Source: an uncultured Clostridia bacterium (GTDB lineage: Bacteria; Bacillota; Clostridia; Lachnospirales; CALKRZ01). Taken from it: 32,686 nucleotides of DNA. Below the pieces are notes generated by a model. That model was not told the origin of the DNA. It worked only from the letters and a program-made list of their open reading frames with translations, and made no database searches. Of the stretch, positions 25,906 to 32,686 are shown piece after piece. Location of the stretch: assembly GCA_937989765.1 (NCBI GenBank), contig CALKRZ010000188.1:1-32686 (forward strand), in the 5' to 3' direction. Every line of letters begins with the position of its first letter. The stretch's first letter is position 1. The position numbers and the translations under genes are program-made.

Positions 25906-26074
25906 ATAAATTACCTCCGTACCAAATATAAGATAAATAAGTAAATGACTAAGAGATAAAGTAAGCTACTTCTTTTTTTAGCTAAACAAAAATAAGGAAA
26001 AAACCATTCTAGCAACTGTATGAGAATTATATCATAGTGTGACATACAAAAATATAAAAATGATGTACTAAAAG

Positions 26075-26113
26075 TTGTGTGGATCAAGAGCATAGTGATA
26101 TTGATCCACACAA
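26075..26113. repeat. Perfect 13-bp inverted repeat, 13-bp spacer
   Basis: ttgtgtggatcaa (26075-26087), ttgatccacacaa (26101-26113). Confidence 0.75.
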
Positions 26114-26216
26114 GGGTAAAAGAAGTGCTTGTATAATAGATAGTAAGATAGCTAAGGAGTGTACCATACCTTGACGGTAGGTATAAAAAAAGATACAATA
26201 ATATAAATACTAATAA

Positions 26217-26360
26217 TTTTTCGGTGTTAGGGAAAGTGGTGAAATTCCACTACAGTCCCCGCTACTGTCAGTACGGACAAAGGCCTACGAATGATCCACT
26301 GAGCATATGCTTGGGAAGGAAGGCACTAGGAGGAAGTACAAGTCAGGATACCTGCCCGAA
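26217..26360 (+). ncRNA. Cobalamin riboswitch aptamer
   Basis: 'ggtgttagggaaagtggtgaaattccactacagtccccgctactgt...gcttgggaaggaaggcactaggaggaagtacaagtcaggatacctgccc', the conserved B12-box layout. Confidence 0.92.
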
Positions 26361-26363
26361 TTT

Positions 26364-26493
26364 AAGGCAACTTCAAAAAAAACTTTGCAATCTGCTGGTC
26401 TATTTTGCGTCATACTTCGTCAGCGGAACCTGCTTTCTTGTCTGACACAAAATATCCTCAGCATCTTTGCAAAGTTTTTTCTTTCATTTGCCT
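26364..26493. repeat. Palindromic repeat element B, copy 1 (between aptamer and terminator)
   Basis: aaggcaacttcaaaaaaaactttgcaatctgctggtctattttg...caaaatatcctcagcatctttgcaaagttttttctttcatttgcct; shares both ends with 28048-28190. Confidence 0.75.
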
Positions 26494-26542
26494 AGATTTC
26501 TGCCCCTCGGAGGAAAGGTGCAGAGGTTTTTTCATGGTGTAT

Positions 26543-26580
26543 AAAACCCACATGGAGCTACCTCTGTGTGGGTTTTTTTG
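26543..26580 (+). terminator. Rho-independent terminator, probable riboswitch expression platform
   Basis: aaaacccaca tggagctacctc tgtgtgggttttttt; preceded by a smaller hairpin tctgcccct...aggtgcaga plus T run (26499-26532). Confidence 0.75.
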
Positions 26581-26627
26581 TATGTATTCTATGCAAAATG
26601 TTTAGAAACTAAACACTACTCACAGGC

Positions 26628-26823
26628 TGTGGATAAAACTGTGGATAATAATTCGTGAGAATTGTGAATGAAAAATAAAATGAGCAGCAAAAAAAATAGG
26701 GAAAGAGGGACAAGGCTAGGATAGTGGATATGTGGGTTGTTTTGTGGATAACTATGGGGAAAGTGATAAGAATTGTGGATGGAGTGGAAAAAAACATGAA
26801 AACAGTGAAAATGCTGTGGATAA
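26628..26823 (-). promoter_or_regulatory. Cluster of four consensus DnaA boxes (TGTGGATAA, reverse complement of TTATCCACA)
   Basis: Exact matches at 26628-26636, 26640-26648, 26743-26751, 26815-26823, all in the same orientation. Confidence 0.6.
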
Positions 26824-27740
26824 TGATATGTTTTATACTTGTAGGCTGTCAAAATCCTGACCACGGAGTGATCCAAAAAGGGAAACTCTTGATTACACAG
26901 GATTTTGGAGGACAGCCACTAGAAAACATAGAAGTAGAATTTGCCAAAGGAGATAGTGTCCTAGAAATAGTACAGCAGTATGCGCAAGTAGAAACCGCGT
27001 ATGATGGAGGATTTGTCAACAGTATCAATGGCATAGGTTCGCTCTATACGCACCAACAGCAAAAGGATAAAAAAGATTGGTTTTATTATATCAATGGCAT
27101 TCAAGGTCATATTGGTTCTGATGACTATCTACCACAGTCAGGAGATGTACTGTGGTGGGATTACCGTAGTTGGGAAGGGGAAGTCATGGCGCAAGCCGTG
27201 ATCGGTGCATATCCACAACCTTTTGTAGGGGGGTATCATAACAAAAACAATCCCACAGTGATACTGTATTCCACAGGGAGAAAAGATACCGCGCAAGAAC
27301 TCATCCACAGCCTGAAGAAGCAGGGCGTACAGCAAATAGATGCGAAACCCCTAGACGGACAATATATCGCCAAAAAGAAGAACAAATTGATCATCCTAGG
27401 CACGTGGGAAGAACTAATGCAGATAAAAGAACTACAAGACATCTATGCACATAGTAGACAGACAGGATTGTTTTTTCAGGTAGAAAAAGATCATATAGTT
27501 GCCTTAGACGCCACAAGACAGTCAATGGGTAAATATCCAAAGGCTGGGATCATCGCTGCCACAGCCACAGGTTTTGGAGATCCCCACCCGATCTGGTTCA
27601 TTACTGGAATAGATGAAGAAAGTGTACGCGCTGCCTTAGATATTCTTCTGGATCAGCCAGAAGTCCTCCAAGGTAAAACAGGTGTATTGATACAAGGAGA
27701 GGAGATCATCCCAATTCCTATTCCCATCAAAGAGCCGTAG
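26796..27740 (+). CDS. DUF4430-domain lipoprotein (transcobalamin/intrinsic-factor C-terminal-like fold)
   Basis: Lipobox 'MICFILVGCQNP'; 'GKLLITQDFGGQPLENIEVEFAKGDSVLEIVQQYAQVETAYDGGFVNSINGIGSLYTHQQQKDKKDWFYYINGIQGHIGSDDYLPQSGDVLWWDYRSWEG' is DUF4430-like; start chosen at MKTVKML rather than 26724. Confidence 0.85.
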   Translation: MKTVKMLWIMICFILVGCQNPDHGVIQKGKLLITQDFGGQPLENIEVEFAKGDSVLEIVQQYAQVETAYDGGFVNSINGIGSLYTHQQQKDKKDWFYYINGIQGHIGSDDYLPQSGDVLWWDYRSWEGEVMAQAVIGAYPQPFVGGYHNKNNPTVILYSTGRKDTAQELIHSLKKQGVQQIDAKPLDGQYIAKKKNKLIILGTWEELMQIKELQDIYAHSRQTGLFFQVEKDHIVALDATRQSMGKYPKAGIIAATATGFGDPHPIWFITGIDEESVRAALDILLDQPEVLQGKTGVLIQGEEIIPIPIPIKEP

Positions 27741-27751
27741 TGTCGTATATA

Positions 27752-28035
27752 CGATAAACGCAAGACAGTACTTGCAAGTTTTCGCTAAAGGAAATATTTC
27801 ATTTTCATAGTGTTCTGGTCGCTGGGGTTATAGATGCCCTGAGTGAATACGCATTATTTTTATTGCGTGTAAGCGGATGGATATCACCATACCGTCCACA
27901 ACGGCTGCCGAAGTTCGCTTCGTTCTAGTATATAGCAAGAAGCTCCACGAACTCTATTCAAATTGAAATATCTCCTTTCGCTTAGGCTATCTGCTATAGT
28001 GTGGCTTGCGTTTACGCTTATGATATACGAGTATA
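27752..28035. repeat. Imperfect palindromic element A
   Basis: Left end 'gtatatacgataaacgcaag...ttcgctaaaggaaatatttcat' reappears inverted as 'ttgaaatatctcctttcgcttag...cttgcgtttacgcttatgatatacg'. Confidence 0.6.
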
Positions 28036-28047
28036 CGTTTTGTGGAT

Positions 28048-28190
28048 AAGGCATCTTCAAAAAAACTTTGCAATATGATGGTCTATTTTGTGCCATACTT
28101 CGTTGTCAGAAGCGCTTGGTAAGACCATGGAACCTTACGCTTTGTCTGATACAAAATATCCTCATCCTCTTGCAAAATTATTTTCTTTCA
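28048..28190. repeat. Palindromic repeat element B, copy 2
   Basis: aaggcatcttcaaaaaaactttgcaatatgatggtctattttgtgccatacttcg...gtctgatacaaaatatcctcatcctcttgcaaaattattttctttca; same ends as copy 1. Confidence 0.7.
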
Positions 28191-28217
28191 GATACTTCAC
28201 TGAAAAGTATGTATGTA

Positions 28218-28346
28218 GTGGGAAGGCAAGTAGATAATCTGGAAACAACTGCAACAAAGGAGCGCGTCCAAAATTTTCAGCTACACTTCTCACTTGCACA
28301 AGTGCGATTTTGCAGTTGTTGGAAGAATATCTACTTGCCTTCCCAC
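28218..28346. repeat. Imperfect palindromic element C, 37-nt arms with 4 mismatches
   Basis: gtgggaaggcaagtagataatctggaaacaactgcaa (28218-28254) and ttgcagttgttggaagaatatctacttgccttcccac (28310-28346). Confidence 0.8.
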
Positions 28347-28412
28347 GGAAGTCTTCTATTCATTTTGTGTAGACGTACGTAAGACCAAGTATTCTTAAGA
28401 TAGGAGTATCCC

Positions 28413-29297
28413 ATGAAATCATATAAAAATCACTCGTTCGCTATTATTCTGTATACGATCGTCCTATCCACACTGGCTCTTTTGTATAACAATCCTCTAT
28501 ATCTTGGGTGCATCTTTTGTATCACGGGTATTATGATCATCCGACAAAGACAGTTAGCTCCATGGGGGAAATTTCTCCTTTTTTCGCTCACTATGGTCTT
28601 GTTTTATACCTTATGCAATCCTTTGTTTTCTTCTAGTGGCAGTACCATACTATGGCGTAGTGGCAGAGTACCGATCATCGGCAGGATTCGCATCACCCTA
28701 GAAGCACTCCTATATGGCATGACGATGGGGGGCAAGCTCATTACGATAGGGAGTATATTTTATCTATATAATGCTTGGATGGACACAGACCAAGCCCTCT
28801 CCTTTTTTTCTAGATTTGCAGATCGTTCGGCACTTTTATTTACGATGACCGTGTCTTTATTTCCAAGATTGAAAAGAGAGGCACTAGAAGTAGGAGATAT
28901 CATGCGAGCAAGAGGGGCTTCTATACAACAGGGGAGTCTATTCACTAGGATCAAGGCGGTGTATCCGATGTGGAAAGTGCTTCTGATCACAGCCCTAGAA
29001 GGCTCACTAGATATGGCAGAAGCCATGGAAGCACGAGGTTACGGCATAGGAAGACGAACTAGGTACCAGACAGAAATCATAGCACCCTCTGATAGAGCAC
29101 TCATAGGATGCACGCTGATTCTCCTTGTTTTGGGAATCATGAGCCTAGGGTATGGCTCAGGCAATATGACATTTTATCCTGTGATCACGGGCAGCTATAT
29201 ACCGTGGGATCTTTGGTGGCTCATGGGTATGATGGGAGTAGGTATCATAGGGGCGGCTGCATACTCCGTCCCTACAGGAAAAGAGGAATGGTCATGA
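28413..29297 (+). CDS. ecfT: ECF transporter transmembrane component EcfT (CbiQ-like)
   Basis: Multiple TM; coupling motifs 'MRARGAS' and 'AMEARGYG'. Confidence 0.9.
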   Translation: MKSYKNHSFAIILYTIVLSTLALLYNNPLYLGCIFCITGIMIIRQRQLAPWGKFLLFSLTMVLFYTLCNPLFSSSGSTILWRSGRVPIIGRIRITLEALLYGMTMGGKLITIGSIFYLYNAWMDTDQALSFFSRFADRSALLFTMTVSLFPRLKREALEVGDIMRARGASIQQGSLFTRIKAVYPMWKVLLITALEGSLDMAEAMEARGYGIGRRTRYQTEIIAPSDRALIGCTLILLVLGIMSLGYGSGNMTFYPVITGSYIPWDLWWLMGMMGVGIIGAAAYSVPTGKEEWS

Positions 29298-30940
29298 AAG
29301 CACTACAGCTCAAAGAGGTAACATATCTATACCCTGGGGAGACTAAAAAGGCGCTAGATGAAGTAAATCTGACGGTCTTACAAGGTGAGTTTATCTTGAT
29401 ACTAGGGCCTTCGGGCTGCGGCAAATCCACTTTGATTCGAGCTATGAATGGTCTTGTTCCACAGTTTTATGGTGGCACGATAGGAGGGCAGATCCTATAT
29501 CTAGATCAAGAAGTATATACCTATCCCAAGCATCAACTACTAGGTGAGATCGGCATGGTGTTCCAAGATCCAGAAAAGCAGATGGTGATGAATACTGTAG
29601 AACGGGAAGTGGCATTTGGTCTAGAAAATCTAGGGATTGCACCGAAAGAGATGAAAAAAAGAGTCATGGAAGTGTTAAGCTATCTGGGGCTTTTGCCACT
29701 GCGGCATAGGGAACTTCATACCCTTTCAGGGGGAGAAAAACAAAAAACAGCCTTGGCGGCGGCTTTGGTTATGAAGCCCACAGTACTACTTCTAGATGAA
29801 CCTACTTCACAGCTTGATCCTACTGCGGCAGAGGAGCTGCTGCATATTTTACATCAGGTCAATCAGGAAGTAGGGATCACCATAGTCTTACTAGAACAGC
29901 GGATGGATAGATGTTTTGTGAGTGCAGATCGCATCATATATATGGAAGAGGGGCGCATTTCTAGGGATACCATTCCTAGAGAGTTTGTCCAGTGGGCAGC
30001 CCAAAAGCGTACCGCTTGGATGCCTCCTGTAGCAAAACTTTTTAAAGATCAAGAAATAGATTCTCTCCCCTTGACAGTGAAAGAAGGTCGGGAGAAACTC
30101 ATAGGCAAAACAATACCCACGATCACGAGATCACCATGCACAGCGCCGTCTACTACCCCAGTCTTGCGACTGACAGAGGTAAGCTTTGGCTATCCCAAAT
30201 ACCCGCTAGCACTAGATAAGACATCCATACAGTGTACACAAGGGGAGTTTATCTGTGTACTCGGTGCCAATGGAGCAGGCAAAAGCACCCTGCTAAAGCT
30301 CATGGCAGGACTTATAAAGCCTGTGGGAGGTAAGATCGAGCTATTGGGGCAGGTACTTTCTCGCTATCATCCTCAAGAAGTGCCTAAGATCGTAGGATAT
30401 CTGGGACAAAATCCGGGACATTATCTATTTCATGATACCCTAGAGGAAGAATGGGCGTATACCCTAGCACTTTTGGGTATTACGAGTAGGACTTCTATAC
30501 AAGACATAGGCGCATTACTCCATCTACAACATCGTATGCAGCATAATCCACGAGACCTCAGTGGGGGAGAACGGCAGCGGGCGGCATTAGGGAGCATTCT
30601 AGTAGTAGACCCTCAAATACTCCTGCTCGATGAGCCGACGCGGGGGATCGATCCGATACTCAAAATAGAACTAGGGGATTTTCTGCAAAAACAGCAGCAA
30701 CAGGGCAAAACCATTCTGATGGTCACCCATGATATAGAATTTGCAGCCACCTACAGTCAGCGGATTATTCTGCTCATAGACGGTATGGTGGTAGCAGATG
30801 GTCTCAAAGAAGAGGTACTAGATGGAGGACTTTTTTACTCCCCTCAAGTCAATAAAGTATTTTATGGAATTACCTCGGGCGTGGTGACAGTAGAGCAGGG
30901 CGTAGCACTTTTGGATACCATGAAGGAGGTGGGAGGATGA
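29294..30940 (+). CDS. Fused tandem ECF ATPase (EcfA-EcfA')
   Basis: Two ABC domains: 'GPSGCGKST'/'LSGGEKQKTALAAALVMKPTVLLLDEPTSQLDP' and 'GANGAGKST'/'LSGGERQRAALGSILVVDPQILLLDEPTRGIDP'; start trimmed to MKALQLKEV overlapping the ecfT stop. Confidence 0.94.
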   Translation: MKALQLKEVTYLYPGETKKALDEVNLTVLQGEFILILGPSGCGKSTLIRAMNGLVPQFYGGTIGGQILYLDQEVYTYPKHQLLGEIGMVFQDPEKQMVMNTVEREVAFGLENLGIAPKEMKKRVMEVLSYLGLLPLRHRELHTLSGGEKQKTALAAALVMKPTVLLLDEPTSQLDPTAAEELLHILHQVNQEVGITIVLLEQRMDRCFVSADRIIYMEEGRISRDTIPREFVQWAAQKRTAWMPPVAKLFKDQEIDSLPLTVKEGREKLIGKTIPTITRSPCTAPSTTPVLRLTEVSFGYPKYPLALDKTSIQCTQGEFICVLGANGAGKSTLLKLMAGLIKPVGGKIELLGQVLSRYHPQEVPKIVGYLGQNPGHYLFHDTLEEEWAYTLALLGITSRTSIQDIGALLHLQHRMQHNPRDLSGGERQRAALGSILVVDPQILLLDEPTRGIDPILKIELGDFLQKQQQQGKTILMVTHDIEFAATYSQRIILLIDGMVVADGLKEEVLDGGLFYSPQVNKVFYGITSGVVTVEQGVALLDTMKEVGG

Positions 30941-31554
30941 ACTGGGGAATCCTATCTCTTATAGGGGCGATGGGACTTTTGATACTTTTTTTTATCTACT
31001 ATGAAAAAAGGAAACCCTCCTCAAAAGAGCTCTCAGCAGTAGCCGCCTTGGCAGCCTTAGCCTCGGCAGGAAGAGTACTATTTGCAGCCCTACCGAATAT
31101 ACAGCCGACTACCTTTCTCATCATGGTGACAGGATTTGTATTTGGTCCTGTGGAAGGCTTTGTCGTGGGTGCTACCTCGGCACTAGCCTCTAATCTACTC
31201 CTAGGGCAAGGGCCTTGGACTCCTTGGCAGATGCTGGCATGGGGATCGTGCGGATTGATAAGCGGGCTTCTTCAAAGAGTAGGAATGAAGCCAAAACGAG
31301 GGCAGTTGGTACTTCTAGGAGTAGCATTTGGATACTTATTTGGGATCATCATGAACCTATGGCACTGGCTGACCTTTATATATCCCTTAAACCTACAGAC
31401 CTTTTTTGCGGTATGGGCTACGTCTTTGTTTTTTGATACACTCCATGCTGTAGGCAATGGATGTTTTGCTTGGCTGATGGGTAAGGATTTGGTGCAAGTA
31501 CTACAGCGGTACAAAAGCCGATTTACATATACACGATGGGAGGCAAAATCATGA
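30937..31554 (+). CDS. ECF transporter substrate-specific (S) component, probable cobalamin or precursor specificity from context
   Basis: 'AALAALASAGRVLFAALPNIQPTTFLIMVTGFVFGPVEGFVVGATSALASNLLLGQGPWTPWQMLAWGSCGLISGLL' is typical of ECF S components; overlaps the ATPase gene end. Confidence 0.85.
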   Translation: MNWGILSLIGAMGLLILFFIYYEKRKPSSKELSAVAALAALASAGRVLFAALPNIQPTTFLIMVTGFVFGPVEGFVVGATSALASNLLLGQGPWTPWQMLAWGSCGLISGLLQRVGMKPKRGQLVLLGVAFGYLFGIIMNLWHWLTFIYPLNLQTFFAVWATSLFFDTLHAVGNGCFAWLMGKDLVQVLQRYKSRFTYTRWEAKS

Positions 31555-32450
31555 GAAGATGGATCAAATGTATAGCCTTACTCTTATGCATGAGCATACT
31601 AGGAAGCACAATAGCCTACGGCAGAGACCTAAAAGTAGAGCAGGCACTCCAAAAAGGGATCAAAACCTACGAAGGCAAAAAAATAGGTGATTGGTCTGCA
31701 TTAGCCCTTTTTGCTACGGGAGAATCCTTAGAGAGCCGAGAATTTTTTAAGACTACCTATGATGAAATGGGCACAACGGACTGTGCAAGAAGAATACTAC
31801 GGCTCTTAGCAGAGGGCAAAGATGTAAAATCCTATGTAGAAGCACTCCAAAAGGTACAACAACCCAATGGGAAATTTGCAGACAGGATGAATGGCAAAGG
31901 GATGGAACAAATCAACGCCCATGTATGGAGCATACTCGCTCTCTATAGTGTCGATGCCGAGTACGATGTTCCTCGCGCGCGGCAGTGGCTGATCTCTGCA
32001 CAGAACAAAGATGGAGGGTTTCACCATTCGACAGTGCTGACTACTTCCGATACGGATATGACCGCTATGGCGCTCTGTGCCATGGCAGCACTAGGGATCA
32101 AACAAGAAGAGCAAGCAGTGCAAAAAACACTTACCTATGTACGAAATATGCAGGCAAAAACAGGCGGATTTGTATCCTCTTATTCAGCCCAAGAAACAGC
32201 CGAAACCACGAGTTGGGTGATACTAGGACTTGTATCTATGGGCATAGATCCCACAAGTAAGCAATGGACCAAATGGAGAAGTAATCCGATCACAGCCCTA
32301 CTGCGGCTGCAACATGCTGACGGACGCTTTAAGCATCTGCCCAAAGATAGAGGAGGAAACAACATCGCCACCCATCAAGCCGTACTGGCACTAGCCAGTT
32401 ATGAACGAGGTTCTGTATTTGAACAGTTAAGAGATAGGGATAAAGAATAA
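31551..32450 (+). CDS. Secreted prenyltransferase/squalene-cyclase-like alpha/alpha-toroid protein
   Basis: Signal peptide 'MRRWIKCIALLLCMSILGSTIAYG'; repeats 'ARQWLISAQNKDGGFHHS', 'TLTYVRNMQAKTGGFVSSYSAQETAETTSWVILGL', 'LLRLQHADGRFKHLPKDRGGNNIATHQAVLAL'. Confidence 0.85.
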   Translation: MRRWIKCIALLLCMSILGSTIAYGRDLKVEQALQKGIKTYEGKKIGDWSALALFATGESLESREFFKTTYDEMGTTDCARRILRLLAEGKDVKSYVEALQKVQQPNGKFADRMNGKGMEQINAHVWSILALYSVDAEYDVPRARQWLISAQNKDGGFHHSTVLTTSDTDMTAMALCAMAALGIKQEEQAVQKTLTYVRNMQAKTGGFVSSYSAQETAETTSWVILGLVSMGIDPTSKQWTKWRSNPITALLRLQHADGRFKHLPKDRGGNNIATHQAVLALASYERGSVFEQLRDRDKE

Positions 32451-32477
32451 TGTCCATAAAAGGCCTCTAAAGTGTAG

Positions 32478-32574
32478 TTTTCCACGGAGGGTTGTGTATA
32501 AAGAGAGAAGTTTTCCACATTTTCCACAGGTTATGTTAGAAATGCCACGTTTCTATCAATAGACTTGTGGATAA
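32478..32574. promoter_or_regulatory. Second DnaA-box cluster, mixed orientation
   Basis: TTTTCCACG (32478, near match), TGTGTATAA (32493-32501), TTTTCCACA (32511-32519 and 32520-32528), TGTGGATAA (32566-32574), then AT-rich sequence to the window end. Confidence 0.6.
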
Positions 32575-32686
32575 ATAGTAAGATGATATATAAAAATTAA
32601 GAGTAAACCATCATCTGTCTCCTATAGTAATGTAGGAGATATTTTATTGTTTTACTGGGTTTTAAATACCAAAAAAGGTAAAAAAA

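Follow-up and report, generated by a model that had tools for sequence, protein, structure and literature searches.

The window, that is the whole stretch of 32,686 nucleotides analysed here, comprises the entire contig C188 of a MAG of 2.30 Mb in 244 contigs (80% complete), and its right edge is the contig end. Near this edge a B12-uptake operon of 5.7 kb is enclosed by two clusters of DnaA boxes (Table 1). The operon is headed by a cobalamin riboswitch and encodes a DUF4430 lipoprotein, three ECF components and an alpha-alpha toroid protein, whose stop codon precedes the right cluster's first box by about 28 nt. An earlier sequence-only reading had described the two clusters as bracketing the B12/ECF genes, and this holds up. 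The four perfect boxes of the left cluster were confirmed, and they are flanked on one side by the riboswitch and the hairpin that follows it, and on the other by the start of the DUF4430 coding sequence.

Table 1. Features of the B12-uptake operon and of the two DnaA-box clusters enclosing it (positions within the window).
Feature	Position	Strand	Remarks
Cobalamin riboswitch aptamer (RF00174)	26205..26373	+	operon head
Hairpin, terminator-like	26543-26576		downstream of the riboswitch
Left (sister) DnaA-box cluster	26628..26823	-	four perfect TTATCCACA boxes at 26628, 26640, 26743 and 26815
DUF4430 lipoprotein	26796..27740	+	N-terminal codons overlap the last box of the left cluster
Isolated perfect DnaA box TTATCCACA	28041..28049	-	inside the operon, adjoining a repeat element
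ECF transmembrane (T) component	28413..29297	+	CbiQ-type
Fused double ECF ATPase	29294..30940	+	two ABC_tran domains
ECF substrate-binding (S) component	30937..31554	+	
Alpha-alpha toroid protein	31551..32450	+	prenyltransferase-like; last gene before the right cluster
DnaA box TTTTCCACG	32478..32486	+	2 mismatches to TTATCCACA, 1 to TTWTNCACA
DnaA box TTATACACA	32493..32501	-	
DnaA box TTTTCCACA	32511..32519	+	first of the abutting pair
DnaA box TTTTCCACA	32520..32528	+	second of the abutting pair, zero spacing
DnaA box TTATCCACA	32566..32574	-	perfect
AT-rich stretch	32575..32620	.	76% A+T
Hairpin, terminator-like	32616..32641	+	11-bp stem, followed by TTTTATTGTT

All sites that had been named for the right cluster (TTTTCCACG, TGTGTATAA, two abutting copies of TTTTCCACA, and TGTGGATAA) are present within these 97 bp. 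If a core box is defined as the consensus TTATCCACA with at most one mismatch, the stretch 32478-32574 contains four of them, or five sites when TTTTCCACG is counted as well; a single one of the five is perfect. Dinucleotide shuffles gave a mean of 0.036 sites, and four or more were reached in none of 2,000 shuffles. The AT-rich DNA that was said to follow the boxes is likewise found there, and the hairpin behind it is real. Its local fold has an energy of -25.1 kcal/mol (z = -3.55), and by its sequence it is probably the intrinsic terminator of the B12 operon. As the hairpin has the look of that terminator, the boxes of the right cluster would be located within the 3' untranslated region of the operon.

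Box counts across the genome were obtained from a sample of 1,360,648 bases (1.36 Mb, 59% of the genome), in which the density of core boxes is 0.12 per kb. Only four clusters with at least three core boxes per 250 bp were detected, namely oriC with six boxes and, with four boxes each, the window clusters at 26.6 kb and 32.5 kb and a cluster on another contig (C55:10168-10302). For clusters of at least four boxes per 250 bp fewer than 0.001 are expected in 1.36 Mb, compared to the four seen. As the sample covers 59% of the genome, the cluster count is a minimum. Two of the three clusters other than oriC fall within 6 kb of each other, for which random placement gives p = 0.018 in a test made post hoc. 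The cluster on C55, the third outside oriC, is intergenic and consists of three perfect boxes plus TTATACACA and TTTTGCACA; its neighbours, as named from their sequences, are a pyruvate-ferredoxin-oxidoreductase-like operon and a chemoreceptor-like gene.

A search of named genomes with the toroid protein gave no match. DUF4430 together with an alpha-alpha toroid is reminiscent of the domain make-up of animal transcobalamin and intrinsic factor, here distributed over two separate bacterial proteins; DUF4430 occurs in TCN proteins (PMC4350170). Among 6.7-kb stretches of the sampled genome the region 26000-32686 (43.4% GC) ranks near the top in GC content, and its tetranucleotide usage is extreme. 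The claim that it is the single most GC-rich stretch was dropped, because it ranks about second on a finer grid. The operon may have been acquired horizontally. Two families of palindromic repeats are represented as well. The first, of about 140 bp with arms around CTGGAAACAACTGCAACAAAGGAGCGCGTCC, has its window copy at 28210-28350 and occurs at about 55 places on 47 contigs of the 1.36-Mb sample, the copies being mostly 81-88% identical; as 12 of them are no more than 200 bp away from a contig end, this repeat probably causes part of the assembly breaks. The second is an imperfect palindrome of about 130-160 bp, present at 18 places in the same sample. Its window copies (26361-26486 and 28047-28190) are situated directly 3' of the riboswitch aptamer, before the terminator-like hairpin, and just past the isolated box at 28041. 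The right cluster itself is not a copy of a repeat family, as its sequences occur only once in the sampled 1.36 Mb.

The layout of the two clusters had been called reminiscent of a bipartite Firmicute oriC. In C. difficile and Bacillus the box regions of such an origin are located between rpmH and dnaA and between dnaA and dnaN, and in the second of them (oriC2), as known from B. subtilis and C. difficile, a box is followed by a GC-rich stretch, the DnaA-trio and the DUE (PMC7561715). The right cluster shares with these origins the consensus TTWTNCACA, the grouping of at least three boxes and the AT-rich DNA nearby (PMC7561715). Unlike them, the window clusters have no adjoining dnaA, dnaN or DnaA-trio and enclose the B12 operon instead. 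Neither boxes flanking dnaA, nor trios together with a GC-rich stretch and a DUE, nor a switch of the GC skew could be identified in the window.

The oriC of this genome is found on contig C174, which carries dnaA, dnaN, an S4-domain gene, recF, gyrB and gyrA in this order (S4, recF and gyr named from sequence). Six core boxes lie in the gap between dnaA and dnaN, which reads TTATCCACA-AATTCACAGCCC-TTACTACTA-TCATTACT and then becomes AT-rich. The order is thus box, GC-rich spacer, TTACTACTA DnaA-trios and AT-rich DNA, and judged by this sequence layout the gap is a canonical oriC2. It shares box types with the window clusters, among them TTTTCCACA and TTATCCACA. The encoded DnaA has the C-terminal HTH domain (PF08299) with the stretch FGGRDHTTI, and the closest named DnaA records are from clostridia (62-64% identity). 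An oriC with dnaA clearly elsewhere was one of the findings that the sequence-only reading had itself listed as speaking against an origin in the window.

The right cluster might nevertheless be the missing upstream half of the bipartite oriC, with dnaA just past the right edge. The window stops at a contig end, AT-rich DNA comes after the boxes, and the upstream half of oriC is indeed unassembled: only 62 bp precede dnaA on C174, and a search of the MAG for rpmH and yidC did not find them. In relatives, however, a divergent rpmH-rnpA-yidC-jag-trmE block lies before dnaA, and a trmE homologue is present at the end of contig C75, oriented as expected for the order trmE-jag-yidC-rnpA-rpmH-dnaA. 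This assigns the gap left of dnaA to C75, and the assembly gap between C75 and C174 most likely hides oriC's upstream half, given the short assembled sequence before dnaA, the missing rpmH and yidC and the position of trmE.

The GC skew also argues against an origin at the right edge. On the + strand of the window it is positive except for two segments rich in reversed genes, whereas negative values would be expected to the left of an origin. It shows no switch at the locus, as had been proposed as a check, remaining positive as far as the right edge; in the reverse complement of contig C2 it is positive too. The positive skew implies that the + strand is the leading strand and that the fork enters from the left, which is opposite to the prediction for an origin just past the right edge. 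C2 is the likely neighbour, because the final 18 bases of the window are identical to its first 18 bases read backwards, in an exact end-to-end match; among the sampled contig ends this is one of five overlaps of at least 12 bases that are not runs of N. As the overlap is short and A-rich, we infer this junction rather than regard it as proven. In the joining orientation the skew of C2 has the same sign as that of the window (0.103), and the contig begins with the gene of a large protein, spread over two frames, that has C-terminal S-layer-homology (SLH) domains; a dnaA gene, for which an inspection of the DNA downstream of the right edge had been proposed, is not encoded on C2. The giant SLH protein (C2 8153-17033) consists of two overlapping frames of 919 and 2057 aa, a split that could be due to a frameshift or an assembly error.

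DnaA-trios in the unwinding element had been proposed as a further mark of an origin. None stands beside a box in either window cluster, and in the AT-rich stretch after the right cluster none was found in the required orientation; relative to the last box, this stretch is moreover on the side opposite to that expected from the layout in B. subtilis and C. difficile. The search required at least three trios (at four or more even the oriC on C174 was missed) and gave one weak trio-like match on C55. Since it detected trios in only three of seven relatives, the negative result is moderate evidence. On the location of dnaA, the skew, the end overlap and the absence of trios we reject an oriC at or just past the right edge, and the reading of the right cluster as half of the origin is extremely improbable.

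The relatives available for comparison all belong to the same order, and none to the same genus or family. The motif of the abutting pair at 32511-32528, TTWTCCACATTWTCCACA, is present in 104 of 245 genomes of the order (about 42%), while the reversed control pattern gave five single matches in total; a looser triple-box pattern was found in 65 of 147. In nearly all genomes where both the pair and dnaA could be placed, the pairs are on another contig than dnaA or at a distance of tens to hundreds of kb, with the reservation that in draft genomes a different contig is no proof of distance. In genomes consisting of one contig the distance is 251 kb (G037), 358 kb (G112), about 430-473 kb (G044) and 1.47 Mb (G122). 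Pairs near dnaA occur in G168, in the dnaA region, and in G144, at 18 kb.

Among the genomes compared, the nearest relative with this operon is G023, whose S component is 46% and whose toroid protein is 34% identical to the proteins of the window. No boxes were found within 1.5 kb of these two genes, which were the ones examined, and 28 other S-component loci show at most one box-like site each. At the loci compared the cluster is for these reasons not a conserved part of the B12 operon. That the boxes are not conserved in related genomes, the second finding named beforehand as adverse to the origin, applies to G023 only.

The boxes could also have accumulated by chance or be a functionless relic, for instance a decayed cluster or an ancestral one split by the arrival of the B12 operon. 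The closeness of two of the three known non-oriC clusters, the high GC content of the operon and the low share of perfect boxes among the right-hand sites would fit such a history. Pure chance is excluded by the shuffles and by the genome-wide expectation, however, and many genomes of the order show the abutting arrangement too, so that we consider a relic very improbable.

DnaA-box clusters (DBCs) of the extra-oriC type consist of three or more DnaA boxes gathered in a few hundred bp, a density beyond chance, at a distance from dnaA and oriC. They are further characterised by DnaA binding in vitro or in vivo and by a change in initiation timing upon their removal, in many cases only jointly with other clusters. 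The right cluster shows this density, and dnaA is absent from C188 as well as from the likely neighbour C2. It is filed as an extra-oriC DBC because oriC lies elsewhere, such clusters are rare in the genome and abutting pairs are common in the order, mostly away from dnaA. The cluster is real, ordinary in kind and not an origin, which avoids a false record of an oriC at this place. Most likely it is a DBC of the B. subtilis kind, one of at least three in this genome besides oriC, which probably holds part of the DnaA pool. All five sites would be predicted targets of the DnaA encoded on C174, with cooperative binding at the abutting pair, and this binding would not entail DNA opening or helicase loading. 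Its most likely role would be to keep part of the free DnaA away from oriC; titration would be the simplest role for a cluster at the 3' end of a gene. A secondary role could be a local effect on transcription, given that the cluster would belong to the operon's 3' untranslated region and that the probable next gene, coding for the SLH protein, starts about 200 bp further downstream.

Clusters of DnaA boxes outside the origin have been studied mainly in B. subtilis. According to the accounts given in reviews, B. subtilis has six of them, and their joint deletion leads to early initiation (PMC5295017; PMC13220808). As far as these reviews describe the original work (Okumura et al. 2012, via PMC5295017 and PMC13220808; binding in PMC4447404), the B. 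subtilis DBCs resemble the present one in that several boxes occur within 100-300 bp, mostly in intergenic DNA away from dnaA and at few places per genome, and one of them (gcp/ydiF) is situated at gene 3' ends like the right cluster. Differences from the DBCs described there are the neighbouring genes and the lower number of boxes. With four to five boxes, one of them perfect, it is modest compared to the 4-11 putative sites in 300 bp given in these sources for B. subtilis clusters.

The main rival to titration is a local effect on the B12 transcript by the left cluster or on the SLH gene by the right one. DnaA would then act mainly as a local transcription factor, and its level or the stage of the cell cycle would tune transcription of the B12 operon and/or of the next gene. 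The position of all four left boxes between the riboswitch hairpin and the DUF4430 start agrees with this, as does the location of the right cluster before the terminator-like hairpin and, if the C2 junction is right, a short distance upstream of the SLH start. Some B. subtilis DnaA-box clusters are also DnaA-controlled promoters, and in this species DnaA is an activator of sda and an apparent repressor of several further genes (PMC4447404). On the other hand, the homologues of the S component and the toroid protein in G023 are free of nearby boxes, and the right cluster overlaps no recognised promoter. We regard a mainly transcriptional role as unlikely.

The E. coli loci datA and DARS control the availability or the nucleotide state of DnaA, and datA works together with IHF. 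Like the right cluster, they are non-coding groups of DnaA boxes outside oriC. Loci of this kind combine DnaA boxes with IHF/Fis sites and act on the DnaA-ATP/ADP state. As a further point of difference, a review describes B. subtilis as lacking IHF as well as datA and DARS loci (PMC13220808).

DnaA bound at both ends of the operon could also bridge the two clusters and thereby couple the import of cobalamin to the replication cycle. On contig C144 the genome encodes NrdJ, a ribonucleotide reductase of the B12-dependent class II, so that the supply of B12 could contribute to dNTP synthesis and itself be adjusted by DnaA. That the homologous locus in G023 has no boxes speaks against a conserved link between B12 and replication, and we consider bridging very improbable.

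The right cluster adds a clostridial lineage with no relative of the same family among the compared genomes to those with extra-oriC DnaA-box clusters. The frequency of abutting pairs in the order and their position mostly away from dnaA suggest that clusters outside the origin are frequent in Clostridia and would lend themselves to systematic comparison. A recurring element of 30 bp consists of three tandem boxes with spacings of 3 and 0 (TTATNCACA-NNN-TTATNCACA-TTATCCACA) or of 0 and 3. It occurs in several families, mostly away from dnaA, with examples at G025:C1:3799032, G044:C1:3372551 and G183:C1:5469239.
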